Shown here: in pieces, positions 36,726 through 50,361 of the stretch | How positions within the stretch are numbered: the first letter of the stretch is position 1 | Layout: each line of letters opens with the position of its first letter | NCBI GenBank assembly: GCA_902540265.1 | Contig: CACBLW010000003.1 | Location: 1-64,000 of the forward strand | From: an uncultured Alphaproteobacteria bacterium | GTDB taxonomy: Bacteria; Pseudomonadota; Alphaproteobacteria; HIMB59; GCA-002718135 | Direction: 5' to 3' | DNA: 64,000 nt | The notes under the pieces: model-generated | What the model was told of the DNA's origin: nothing | The model's input: only the letters and a program-made list of their open reading frames with translations | Databases searched by the model: none | Position numbers and translations under genes: made by a program

Positions 36726-37091
36726 TTATTTTTTTAGTTTTTCCCATTCAGCCATACCACCAGAAATATTCTTTACATTCTTAATGCCCATGTCATGCAT
36801 TGTTTTAGTTGATAAAGTTCCTTGCCCACCAACACCACAAAATACAACATATTCTTTATTAGGATTTTCTTTAAAAAATTTATTTTCTAAGGGACTACCT
36901 TCTGCTAAATAAAATTCAAGAAAAGCTCTATCCAAATGTATTGCATTTCCTATTGTTCCTTTATCAAAACTGTCTTTATCTCTTACATCAATAAATTGTA
37001 CATTTGGATCATTGAGCTTTTCCCTTGCTTCTGTTGCAGAAATATTTTCAATTTCATTTTTAACACTCATCAATTCTTCAAATTTTTTCAT
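36726..37091 (-). CDS. Rhodanese-like domain protein
   Basis: Single-domain rhodanese of 121 residues. The cysteine loop carries C85 in VVFCGVGGQG, a six-residue loop (CGVGGQ) as in sulfurtransferases. ISATEAREKLNDPNVQFIDVRDKDSF is the N-terminal domain signature and GGMAEWEKL the end. It may move sulfane sulfur to a thiol acceptor. The start codon is only about 21 bp from the outermost copy of the ssrA-derived repeat, so its promoter must lie in or beyond the inserted material. An alternative ATG seven codons downstream is possible. Confidence 0.85.
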   Translation of the reverse strand: MKKFEELMSVKNEIENISATEAREKLNDPNVQFIDVRDKDSFDKGTIGNAIHLDRAFLEFYLAEGSPLENKFFKENPNKEYVVFCGVGGQGTLSTKTMHDMGIKNVKNISGGMAEWEKLKK

Positions 37092-37111: not shown

Positions 37112-37136
37112 GTGGGGCGTTCTGTTGCTCAGTGCC
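37112..37136 (+). repeat. Distal att-like copy A of the ssrA 3' end
   Basis: Begins GTGGGGCGTTCTGT and continues TGCTCAGTGCC. Over about 23 bases it matches the ssrA terminator region at 39731-39753 with one mismatch (A for G), so it is the longest partial duplicate of the ssrA end. It marks the outer border of the array next to the rhodanese gene. The second half of the terminator stem is lost (CCAG instead of CCCC). Confidence 0.8.
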
Positions 37137-37324
37137 AGAACAAGTCCTCATTAAATTACACATACCCAAACACCCAATAGTTTAAGCATTTCCTACTGTT
37201 ATCACTCATTCTTTCTTTAAAACTTATATCATATTTATTTTGAGAACAGAGAATTTTTAATTATTTTACACACGATATATAATAATTTAATAAAGTTATT
37301 TAAAAATTTATTGTATGTTTAATT

Positions 37325-37681
37325 ATGTTTTTAAACTTAATAAAAAAAATCACAGTCTTCTTATTTTTTGTTAATCCTGCTCTAGCTTTTCATGATGTAG
37401 AAGTTTCTAATGAGGATATAGCTACTTTAGGAGGATTATGGGTTCAAATATTTGTTTATGAAGAAAACTGTATAGATAATCAATATTACACTTTAATAAT
37501 AGAAAGATTACAAGAAAGTCCAAGATTTGAAAGATACTCATCAGAGATAGATCATTTAACTGAAAGCCAAGAATTGGCTTGGGAAAATGGTGCTGAAGGC
37601 GCAGCTTTAGTAATTGAATCAGGTGGAACAAGCTGTGATATTATAGCCGAAGTTATTTGGGAATGGTTTGGTGAAAATTAG
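37325..37681 (+). CDS. Small secreted hypothetical protein (cassette 3 cargo)
   Basis: Not recognised. It has 118 residues with a signal peptide (ITVFLFFVNPALA, cleaved near residue 21). The mature part is acidic, with two cysteines (EENCIDN and TSCDII) likely to form a disulfide and a helical middle part (ERLQESPRFERYSSEIDHL). The stop codon lies 17 bp before the TTACGCACA repeats of the cassette end, so the gene fills the unit. Probably periplasmic; function unknown. Confidence 0.6.
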   Translation: MFLNLIKKITVFLFFVNPALAFHDVEVSNEDIATLGGLWVQIFVYEENCIDNQYYTLIIERLQESPRFERYSSEIDHLTESQELAWENGAEGAALVIESGGTSCDIIAEVIWEWFGEN

Positions 37682-37697
37682 AAAAATTTTAATTTAT

Positions 37698-37717
37698 TTA
37701 CGCACATATTACGCACA
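37698..37717 (+). repeat. TTACGCACA direct repeats (cassette 3 arm-type sites)
   Basis: TTACGCACA occurs at 37698-37706 and 37709-37717, an 11-bp period. The second copy ends 55 nt before the GGGG of copy B. The period and distance are close to those of the CTTCGTAG repeats in the other two cassettes (11-12 bp and 50 nt), but the sequence is different. This suggests a related recombinase with another arm specificity. Confidence 0.55.
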
Positions 37718-37770
37718 AATTTAGAGCAACTTAAAAAAACAAAAAAAATGAATCAAAATTTAAGAATATG

Positions 37771-37784
37771 GTGGGGTGTTCTGT
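37771..37784 (+). repeat. att-like copy B
   Basis: GTGGGGTGTTCTGT, one mismatch (T for C) to the cores of copies A and C. It separates cassettes 3 and 2. The sequence to its right (37785-37908) is a near copy of the sequence to the right of copy C, whereas the sequence to its left is unrelated to that left of C and D. Copy B therefore joins the ends of two different kinds of unit. Confidence 0.8.
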
Positions 37785-37835
37785 ATAACGACTACTAAAT
37801 CATTATTAACAGAAAATAAGGACTTTTGGAAACTT

Positions 37836-37899
37836 CTTCGTATAAACTTCGTAGTAAGTTTTCATTATTCGTCAGATTTCTTGTTTTAGTTCCTCGTAG
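37836..37899 (+). repeat. Left-arm repeats of cassette 2
   Basis: Three octamers in the same orientation: CTTCGTAT (37836-37843), CTTCGTAG (37847-37854) and CCTCGTAG (37892-37899). The spacing matches the left arm of cassette 1 (11 bp, then 45 bp), with one substitution each in the first and third copies. They lie 51 nt after the core of copy B. The slight decay compared with cassette 1 suggests an older insertion. Confidence 0.7.
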
Positions 37900-37928
37900 T
37901 TTTTTGTTATAAAAAAAAACTAATAAAT

Positions 37929-38810
37929 ATGAAACTACAAAATATATTAATTTATTTCAACATTAGTATTTTTTTTATTTTGCTATCTTCTAGTTTAAAA
38001 GCGGAAATAAAATTAAATGATTTTGTCCCAAGTCAATTTCATGGTGTCTGGAGTGAAGATTGTGAAATTCAAGAATTTACTTGGCGAATTGATGAATATA
38101 CAAGTTTAGAAATTACTGAAAATAATTTCTATTTAGATTTTTTGAAAACTAATCAGATTAATACTTACACAGTTTCAAAATACCATCAAGAATGGGAACC
38201 GGGAAAACCATGGTATTTTTTTATGAAAATAGAAAATGAAAAACTTGTATACAAAGATATGCCCTCTGAATGGAATGAAAAAGACTTTAGTTTCTTATTA
38301 GATTCTACATATGATGACACAACTGTTTTTGAAAAATGTGAGTTAGGTATAAAAAATGAATACAAAATAATTTTAAATACACTTTTAGAAATATTAGACT
38401 CAGACATCATTAAAATTTGTAGTGAAAGTAACTTTCAAAATATTAATTGCTATAAAAGTTTTTTTAATTTTTTTGACATAAATAGAGATAGAGAATTAAC
38501 AATTGCAGAACTATCATTCTTTTCTAAATTTTTAATAAATTTTATATACCTTAATGGTAATATAAATGCCGATTATAATGAAAGTTTAATGCAAGATAAT
38601 TTTTTAATAATTAATGGAACATCATTTGTTTTTGCACCATATTTTTCACAATTACTTGTATTAAATTATGATTTTGATAATTCTAATTCTCTATCAATTG
38701 ATGAAATACTAAATGAAAATTCTGAAATTATAACAAGTATTCCACTTTTATTAAATAGCGATATAAATTCATTACAAGATTTATTCACTAAATTTAACAA
38801 TATCTTTTAA
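37929..38810 (+). CDS. Secreted EF-hand domain protein (cassette 2 cargo)
   Basis: Hypothetical protein of 293 residues with a signal peptide (to about residue 25, SSSLKA|E). Two EF-hand-like calcium loops are visible: DINRDRELTIAE (about 183-194) and DFDNSNSLSIDE (about 253-264), both with acidic or oxygen-bearing residues at the usual positions and a closing Glu. The N-terminal half (FHGVWSEDCEIQEFTWRID) resembles lipocalin-like small-ligand domains only vaguely. It probably acts in the periplasm or outside the cell and binds calcium. It lies alone between recombination-site-like repeats; no partner gene is apparent. Confidence 0.7.
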   Translation: MKLQNILIYFNISIFFILLSSSLKAEIKLNDFVPSQFHGVWSEDCEIQEFTWRIDEYTSLEITENNFYLDFLKTNQINTYTVSKYHQEWEPGKPWYFFMKIENEKLVYKDMPSEWNEKDFSFLLDSTYDDTTVFEKCELGIKNEYKIILNTLLEILDSDIIKICSESNFQNINCYKSFFNFFDINRDRELTIAELSFFSKFLINFIYLNGNINADYNESLMQDNFLIINGTSFVFAPYFSQLLVLNYDFDNSNSLSIDEILNENSEIITSIPLLLNSDINSLQDLFTKFNNIF

Positions 38811-38849
38811 ATCTAATAGTTTTAGTTGGTATAAATATTTTCTTAAATA

Positions 38850-38880
38850 CTTCGTAGTAACTTCGTAGTAAACTTCGTAG
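38850..38880 (+). repeat. Right-arm repeats of cassette 2
   Basis: CTTCGTAG occurs exactly at 38850-38857, 38861-38868 and 38873-38880, in one orientation with 11- and 12-bp spacing. The last copy ends exactly 50 nt before the GGGG of copy C. The arrangement and the following AT-rich 50 nt match the right end of cassette 1 at 39650-39730. Confidence 0.85.
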
Positions 38881-38928
38881 AAAGATTTTTATAAAAAATT
38901 ATTGATATTACTAGATAATATTAAAAAA

Positions 38929-38942
38929 GTGGGGCGTTCTGT
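38929..38942 (+). repeat. att-like copy C
   Basis: GTGGGGCGTTCTGT, identical to copy A over 14 bases and to ssrA (copy D) over GGGGCGTTCTGT. Copy C is flanked by a complete set of arms: three CTTCGTAG ending 50 nt to the left and the first of three beginning 50 nt to the right. It thus looks like a reconstituted attP-type site at the junction of cassettes 2 and 1. Confidence 0.85.
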
Positions 38943-38992
38943 AGAACGATCACTAAATCATATTAACAGAAAATAAGAAATTTTGGAAACTT

Positions 38993-39056
38993 CTTCGTAG
39001 AAACTTCGTAGTAAGTTTTCTTTATTTGTCAGATTTCTTGTTTTAGTTCTTCGTAG
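38993..39056 (+). repeat. Left-arm repeats of cassette 1
   Basis: Exact CTTCGTAG at 38993-39000, 39004-39011 and 39049-39056. The first begins exactly 50 nt after the core of copy C ends. The sequence between and around them (AGTAAGTTTTC, TCAGATTTCTTGTTTTAGTT) is also conserved with the cassette 2 left end, so the whole 120-bp arm is the conserved unit and not just the octamers. Confidence 0.85.
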
Positions 39057-39062
39057 TCTTTT

Positions 39063-39590
39063 TTATTCTTTAATTAAGGATAATAATTTCTTTGCTAGTC
39101 TAGAAACTGCCTTTCTTCTATCTTTTGAAAGTTTTTTAATAATTTTTATATTTTCTTTTATTGTTTTATTATCAATTTTATTGAAAGTTATTAGAGCATT
39201 CATTGATTGACACAAAACAATCCAATCACTGGAATTATTAAGATAATCAGATACAATTTTTTTTGCTTTTTTTTGTTCTTTATTTTCTAATTGATTAACT
39301 AATTCTGAAAATAATTGAGCGCAGGTCCATTGTGTGGAAGATTGTTTTATTTTTGAAATTTTGTTTAAGAAAATATGTTTAAAATCTAAAAACCATTCTG
39401 GTTTTTGTCTAAATATTCTTTTAAAAGCATTTGATGTTCTTAATCTTACTATTTGGTCTGTGCTTGAATAACACTTAATTAATGGATTAATTCTATTTTT
39501 TTTAACAATAACATGTTCAACAACTTTTATTGTATTACCTAGTGAATTTGGATGACCTCCAGTTAGTTCAGACTCATAATTCATTATCAA
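39063..39590 (-). CDS. HEAT-like repeat protein (cassette 1 cargo)
   Basis: Hypothetical protein of 175 residues, all-helical in appearance. The N-terminal ESELTGGHPNSLGNT stretch and VVEHVI... / RLRTSNAFKRIFRQKPEWF are reminiscent of small HEAT-repeat proteins related to DNA-alkylation-repair folds, but no catalytic residues can be named. There is no signal peptide, so it is cytoplasmic. It is rich in Lys in the second half. ATGs occur at 39590 and 39584; either could start it. Function unknown; protein-protein or nucleic-acid contact is a guess. Confidence 0.65.
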   Translation of the reverse strand: MIMNYESELTGGHPNSLGNTIKVVEHVIVKKNRINPLIKCYSSTDQIVRLRTSNAFKRIFRQKPEWFLDFKHIFLNKISKIKQSSTQWTCAQLFSELVNQLENKEQKKAKKIVSDYLNNSSDWIVLCQSMNALITFNKIDNKTIKENIKIIKKLSKDRRKAVSRLAKKLLSLIKE

Positions 39591-39649
39591 TTAATTTGTT
39601 TAAATAAATCTGACAATTAACATTACCTAATAATAAATTATATATTTTC

Positions 39650-39680
39650 CTTCGTAGTAACTTCGTAGTAAACTTCGTAG
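39650..39680 (+). repeat. Right-arm repeats of cassette 1
   Basis: Exact CTTCGTAG at 39650-39657, 39661-39668 and 39673-39680, the same 11/12-bp spacing as at 38850-38880. The last copy again ends 50 nt before the GGGG core, here in the ssrA terminator. The 50-nt spacer is well conserved between both places (GATAATATT and the A run before the core). Confidence 0.85.
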
Positions 39681-39723
39681 AGAGGTTTTTAAAAGAAATT
39701 GTTGATTTGATTAGATAATATTT

Positions 39724-39755
39724 AAAAAATGGGGCGTTCTGTTGCTCGGTGCCCC
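39724..39755 (-). terminator. ssrA terminator, overlapping att copy D
   Basis: On the minus strand GGGGC (39755-39751) pairs with GCCCC (39735-39731) around a 15-nt loop and is followed by six T (39729-39724). The 3' stem strand and part of the loop are the att core shared with copies A-C. The T run belongs to the cassette side of the junction (the A run in the right end of cassette 1). Confidence 0.65.
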
Positions 39756-39975
39756 TGACCGCGCTCACCTAGAATCTAGGCAGCAAGTGCTAATCTATTA
39801 TCGTTAGCGTTTATAAAATAGCCCGATAACGGTGGTACAATACCGGATAAAGTCTTTGTCTTTGAATTACCGTCAAACCTATTTCGTCCCCATATTGGTG
39901 GAGACGCCGGGTACCGCCCCCGGGTCCGAATAACTTATTGCACAAAGCATTTATTATCTTAGTTGCAAAGCAACA
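39731..39975 (-). ncRNA. ssrA: Transfer-messenger RNA, circularly permuted two-piece type
   Basis: Rescues stalled ribosomes by adding a degradation tag. On the minus strand the acceptor piece comes first and ends in CGTCTCC-ACCA (3' end at 39896). Only four bases (ATAT, 39895-39892) separate it from the coding piece, which starts GGGGACG (39891-39885). GGGGACG and CGTCTCC form the 7-bp acceptor stem, with a G3-U wobble, the alanine identity element. The tag frame runs from 39808 to 39776 and reads ANDNRLALAA-stop. The T-arm stem is CCGGG/CCCGG with loop GGCGGTA, not the usual TTCGA-type loop. This permuted layout is that of alphaproteobacteria. Confidence 0.92.
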
Positions 39976-39980
39976 TTTTC

Positions 39981-39986
39981 ATTATA
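39981..39986 (-). promoter_or_regulatory. Probable ssrA -10 element
   Basis: On the minus strand a perfect TATAAT lies at 39986-39981, about 7-10 bases before the GTTGC-TTT-GCAAC hairpin that seems to open the tmRNA precursor. No good -35 is visible. The rest of the 39976-40077 spacer before folA holds only AT-rich sequence. Confidence 0.55.
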
Positions 39987-40077
39987 CCTTAAACTAATAA
40001 TACTTGAAAGTTTTGTCTTGAAACCTAGCAATTAAAAAAAAAAATTGTTACTAATTAAAACATAAAATAAAAGAAAT

Positions 40078-48800: not shown

Positions 48801-50361
<1,561 letters not shown>

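Follow-up and report, generated by a model that had tools for sequence, protein, structure and literature searches.

The window (the whole 64,000-nt stretch of DNA that was analysed) carries a permuted alphaproteobacterial tmRNA gene, ssrA, on the minus strand at 39728..40013 (Rfam RF01849, 217 bits; also called as tmRNA by ARAGORN). The 3' end of ssrA is an attachment site, and beside it lies an array of three short cassettes divided by copies of that 3' end, here referred to as cores. Only four copies of the 12-bp core were found in the window with at most one mismatch, all on the plus strand: A (37114..37125), B (37773..37784, reading GGGGTGTTCTGT), C (38931..38942) and D (39731..39742), an attR-like junction at which GGGGCGTTCTGT runs into ssrA sequence. 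A fifth match, at 49084, carries two mismatches. Beyond core A lies a rhodanese-like gene (36726..37091, minus strand; named by eye from sequence; cluster c5, 45 loci), the conserved chromosomal flank of the site. The left flank of core A resembles the left flank of ssrA in genomes where the site is empty, and we therefore read A as the attL-like outer limit of the array and D as the restored ssrA end, which leaves B and C as internal junctions.

From A to B, element 3 (659 bp, 37114..37772) carries a plus-strand gene for a 118-aa protein (37325..37681) and belongs to a different arm family from its neighbors, with a plus-strand pair of TTACGCAC repeats at 37698 and 37709 (37698..37716), 56 nt before core B. 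A better preserved relative of this element is found at another locus (L341). The sequence TTACACAT at 37156-37163, after core A, is apparently a decayed counterpart of the TTACGCAC arm. Element 1 (1158 bp, 37773..38930) spans cores B to C and encodes a 293-aa protein on the plus strand (37929..38810). Element 2 (800 bp, 38931..39730) spans C to D; its 175-aa gene, on the minus strand at 39063..39590, is of unknown function, and relatives of the element occur at 31 of the same-genus loci fetched and in one SAR11 genome. Searches gave no confident family for any of the three cargo proteins: none was found for the 118- and 293-aa products, and the 175-aa product had only sub-threshold Pfam or NCBIfam matches and no PHROG match. 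No integrase ORF is present in the window's array.

A preliminary description of this DNA had proposed that core C is flanked by three octamer repeats per side, each set 50 nt away, in the layout of a lambda-like attP. The coordinates bear this out. Copies of the octamer CTTCGTAG start at 38850, 38861 and 38873 upstream of core C (P arm set, 38850..38880) and at 38993, 39004 and 39049 downstream (P' arm set, 38993..39056), all on the plus strand, and the intervening gaps (38881-38930 and 38943-38992) are each exactly 50 nt. The octamers are spaced by 11 and 12 bp upstream and by 11 and 45 bp downstream; the values given earlier were correct, although their ‘right’ and ‘left’ labels are the reverse of what the coordinates show. 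The upstream set had also been said to recur before core D with the same gap, as it does (39650..39680, plus strand, with octamers at 39650, 39661 and 39673 and 50 nt to the core). The downstream set does recur after core B (37836..37899, plus strand), but it is only partly the same set, since two of its three octamers carry one substitution (CTTCGTAT at 37836 and CCTCGTAG at 37892, with CTTCGTAG at 37847 between them). In total the window contains 10 copies of CTTCGTAG against 0.27 expected, a number reached in no shuffle, and all 10 lie on the plus strand within these sets. Genome-wide, all five octamer pairs map to the ssrA locus, and a reversed control pattern gave no pairs in the whole genome. 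Core C has the sequence expected either of a junction between tandem elements or of a free attP. Here it is a P-core-P' junction of two tandem elements; the attP-like layout stands, but C is not itself a free attP.

We fetched the ssrA neighborhoods of 75 loci from genomes of the window's genus. Several of these records are ocean single-cell genomes labeled as uncultured Alphaproteobacteria; since at least some are single-cell amplified, an individual case may be a chimera. Between ssrA and the rhodanese-like gene there is either no insert or a tandem array of short segments, which usually carry one gene and hardly ever an integrase. In the seven empty sites the rhodanese gene starts less than about 40 nt from the ssrA end, and filled intervals range from a single cassette to more than 13 kb, with core copies as dividers. 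The conserved genes on the other side of ssrA form clusters c0 and c1, which we take to be folA and thyA. Octamer pairs occur in 35 of the 102 genomes of the genus, nearly all within ssrA arrays; in the places away from ssrA that we inspected (G031, G058 and G105) the element keeps its core and adjoins another cassette. A general intergenic repeat family without a tie to ssrA-derived cores would have refuted the original proposal, and none was seen in the genus. At three loci (L408, G105:C4, 841-1720; L374; L375) the 800-bp cassette lies away from ssrA, joined to an exonuclease-bearing cassette whose P' has CTTCACTG repeats on a similar scaffold; at L408, two tRNA-like sequences (tRNA-Gly by eye) lie on either side of the cassette pair.

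By a mechanical ORF count, 72 of 94 closed core-to-core segments contain one ORF with a length of 90 aa or more; integrase ORFs were found in just 1 of the 94, broken into two pieces. Most units measure about 0.4-3.4 kb and typically carry a single gene, and many retain both P and P' arm sets. Their median length of 801 bp owes much to the frequent 800-bp element, the 175-aa gene of which is present in 31 loci. The same P and P' ends are found with different cargo: between elements, values for P' identity lie mostly at 0.7-0.95 as far as the third octamer and soon afterwards drop to about 0.4, and the innermost P octamer hardly varies among the compared set. Conservation of P' despite different cargo, a prediction of the attP reading, is upheld. 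As to whether the octamers are the most conserved positions, alignment of cassette ends showed no clear excess over the scaffold between them. An IHF consensus was present in the gap between arm and core in 13 of 48 cases, against a shuffle mean of 10.

The layout is not restricted to CTTCGTAG. Many segments have a short repeat of their own common to both ends (TGTGTGC, ACGGCAC, TTACGCA, TTACGCG, GACGCGT, TGTGACT and others; arms of other families include CTTCACTG, GGTACATAG and TTACGCAC). Among 47 distinct non-CTTCGTAG segments, 24 share such a repeat between their own two ends, compared with a mean of 3.1 and a maximum of 8 when ends were re-paired (500 trials; 7-mers with at least three G or C and at least three copies across the two ends); about half of these segments had no shared repeat under this test. 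In most cases, and independent of the repeat, copies on the same side are spaced by 11 or 12 bp, and 48-59 nt separate the end of the innermost P copy from the core. Within one scaffold class, an octamer common to both ends was found in 10 of 10 elements versus 4.8 after re-pairing, and 10 was reached in 2 of 1000 shuffles. An arm-identity figure of 0.26 was discarded because octamer frames differ between elements. The attP-like layout therefore recurs in other cassettes with other octamers.

A check suggested at the outset was to look in related genomes for the same repeats and core beside an integrase gene, and this combination exists at ssrA in a SAR11 cell. The genome AG-359-P21 (G142), labeled Pelagibacteraceae, contains a 10.4-kb element (L416:1581-11976) that runs from an outer core to the ssrA end and carries CTTCGTAG arms at either side. 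Its P' differs from those of the window-genus cassettes at 5 of 137 positions. Adjoining its arms is a gene for a 429-aa protein that had no significant Pfam, PHROG or PDB match. However, a profile of this protein and two relatives matched the catalytic region of tyrosine integrases (hhalign 96.3%, E 1.9e-9), and by this profile comparison it is assigned as a divergent tyrosine integrase, in which Tyr replaces the HxxR His that most relatives have. A phage-type clamp loader and a serine resolvase are further products of the element, and related SAR11 integrases (L430, L432) adjoin a similar P' scaffold with other repeats. In one cassette (L311) the last 28 aa of the 429-aa integrase survive beside P' at 93% identity; a weaker 22-aa match in the same place in another (L321; E 0.1) is probably a second remnant. 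These remnants suggest that the cassettes arose by deletion from integrase-bearing elements. A further ssrA-linked locus (L343, G040:C16) contains a resolvase homologue (35%); the 429-aa integrase also matches it weakly, at the edge of the contig.

Evidence for movement comes from a second SAR11 genome, of the same SAR11 genus, in which an 800-bp cassette lies between peroxiredoxin-like and rnhA-like genes (G611). This copy is 99.6% identical to one in the window's genus (L351) and 95.6% identical to the window copy. In relatives of G611 the site is empty and reads GGGCAGTTCTGTTGC. At the left junction of the G611 insertion P' comes after the host version, GGGCAGTTCTGT; at the right junction it is the element version, GGGGCGTTCTGT, that precedes host DNA. 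Exchange thus took place inside the 7 bp GTTCTGT. Judged from these junctions, the insertion looks like a naturally preserved instance of site-specific integration by an integrase-less element; their exactness makes a single-cell amplification chimera unlikely, though it is not excluded. This peroxiredoxin-rnhA gap of SAR11 (L428 8189-8988; L449, L450, L453, L454) includes a sequence like the ssrA tail, and insertions that vary in size between genomes apparently occupy it; at L449 it contains three CTTCGTG-type repeats.

These observations bear on the possibility that the arrays are fixed, immobile remnants of degraded island-type elements that have kept only their ends and a gene and owe their shuffling to homologous recombination among cores and flanks. 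Several arm sets are indeed decayed (the core B set and the core A side), and integrase remnants exist. We nevertheless give this explanation little credence: a near-identical 800-bp copy occupies a different SAR11 site with exact site-specific junctions, P and P' are conserved while cargo varies, and relatives alternate between empty and filled states.

The 429-aa SAR11 integrase as query had no match in the window's genome. Across the genus as searched, no CTTCGTAG arms were seen together with a complete integrase. Leaving aside the matches to a bare two-octamer pattern, which were not inspected individually, the searches pointed to no viral carrier: viral contigs gave 0 matches to a pattern of P arms plus core, a longer ssrA-tail pattern also gave 0 matches, the c32 integrase found no viral relative, and the 429-aa integrase found none among viral contigs or a phage collection. 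A core-plus-arm pattern hit three phage contigs, which we judged to be chance matches.

PF00589 detected one recombinase in the window's genome, a 352-aa tyrosine recombinase (L242; also L425, G000:C4:80000-90000) that scores well below the XerC/XerD cut-offs. It might be supposed that this host-encoded protein captures and shuffles the cassettes in the fashion of an integron integrase, with the octamers as accessory sites. It is the sole match of its kind in the genome, similar matches occur about once in most genomes of the genus, and the array does look like a cassette array. Still, a single protein hardly explains many repeat families at similar positions, its gene lies on a contig other than that of ssrA, and it is a different integrase gene that adjoins CTTCGTAG arms and has left a remnant inside a cassette; we regard its involvement as very unlikely. 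Short direct repeats one helical turn apart would also suit transcription factors, but the idea that the octamers are operators for a regulator of the cassette genes or ssrA, not integrase sites, is scarcely tenable, given that they stand at fixed distances on either side of a recombination core whichever type of cargo is present, that an integrase-bearing element has matching ends, and that in other cassettes they differ in sequence while the two ends of each agree.

Altogether, we consider it very likely that these are non-autonomous ssrA cassettes with lambda-type arms, moved in trans by the integrases of larger elements. Weighing against this are the failure to find a complete integrase with CTTCGTAG arms in the window's genus or a carrier among viral contigs and the phage collection, octamers no more conserved than their scaffold, an IHF consensus not above shuffle, the Tyr in the HxxR position, the roughly half of non-CTTCGTAG segments without a shared repeat, and the chance of chimeric genomes. 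The window's array would then be three small non-autonomous integrative elements in tandem at the ssrA 3' end, each bounded by ssrA-derived cores and with its own P and P' arms. The CTTCGTAG octamers would most likely be arm-type binding sites for a lambda-like tyrosine integrase, although there are no binding data. The cassettes, having no integrase gene, would depend for integration and excision on an integrase acting in trans and encoded by a larger element with the same arms, a helper represented by the 10.4-kb SAR11 element, with strand exchange within GTTCTGT. The tandem structure, the matching end arms, the integrase-bearing element with the same ends, the integrase remnant in a cassette, the empty and filled sites and the exchange point can all be read directly from the sequences. 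That an integrase binds the arms, that it is supplied in trans, that cassettes are excised and how they pass between cells are inferences, and no binding or recombination data lie behind them. The arm-type interpretation first put forward from the window alone is supported, and its predictions held.

A broader proposal, which we see as possible rather than probable, is that ocean alphaproteobacteria share an integron-like, integrase-free economy of ssrA cassettes, in which one-gene units on a few conserved att scaffolds, each with an interchangeable octamer that assigns it to a particular helper integrase, move between lineages as far apart as the window's genus and SAR11. If this is true, single genes spread among abundant marine bacteria by way of these arrays, and surveys that start from integrase genes would overlook it. 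The many octamers on a shared scaffold also constitute a natural series on arm-site recognition by integrases and bear on how non-autonomous elements stay matched to their helpers.

Lambda-type attP sites consist of a core with a short exchange region, flanked on each side by direct-repeat arms spaced at about one helical turn. The cassettes resemble this arrangement in having a core (the ssrA 3' end) with a short exchange region (GTTCTGT), direct-repeat arms on both sides at defined distances, and an int gene beside the site, the last in the SAR11 element and not in the cassettes. They differ in that the cassettes lack int, many arm octamers occur on few shared scaffolds, and IHF sites have not been demonstrated. 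Integron gene cassettes are one-gene units arrayed at one site, as here, but our arrays have no integron integrase and are bounded by direct ssrA-derived cores with arm repeats. The ssrA islands of Dehalococcoides are tandem, bounded by direct repeats of the ssrA 3' end and in some cases integrase-less, and their integrase is the serine recombinase DsiB (PMC3146451). Both systems thus comprise tandem ssrA islands bounded by 3'-end repeats, some without integration genes. In contrast, the gene beside the arms here is of tyrosine type, with a serine resolvase elsewhere in the SAR11 element, and the units are mostly 0.4-3.4 kb, typically with one gene and many with P and P'. Tycheposons are 4-200 kb elements at tRNA genes with a tyrosine recombinase (PMC10872708). 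They share with our elements marine bacterial hosts, an RNA-gene attachment site, cargo genes and a tyrosine recombinase, the last here in larger elements only; the cassettes themselves do not meet the tycheposon criteria, with a median of 801 bp, no recombinase and an ssrA site. They do meet those for a cis-mobilizable element (CIME), the class of accretion islands to which the integrase-less Dehalococcoides islands are also compared, with att sites at both ends and integrase ORFs in only 1 of 94 closed segments, although transfer genes were not searched for systematically. A limited search of the literature turned up no account of one-gene arrays whose arms vary.
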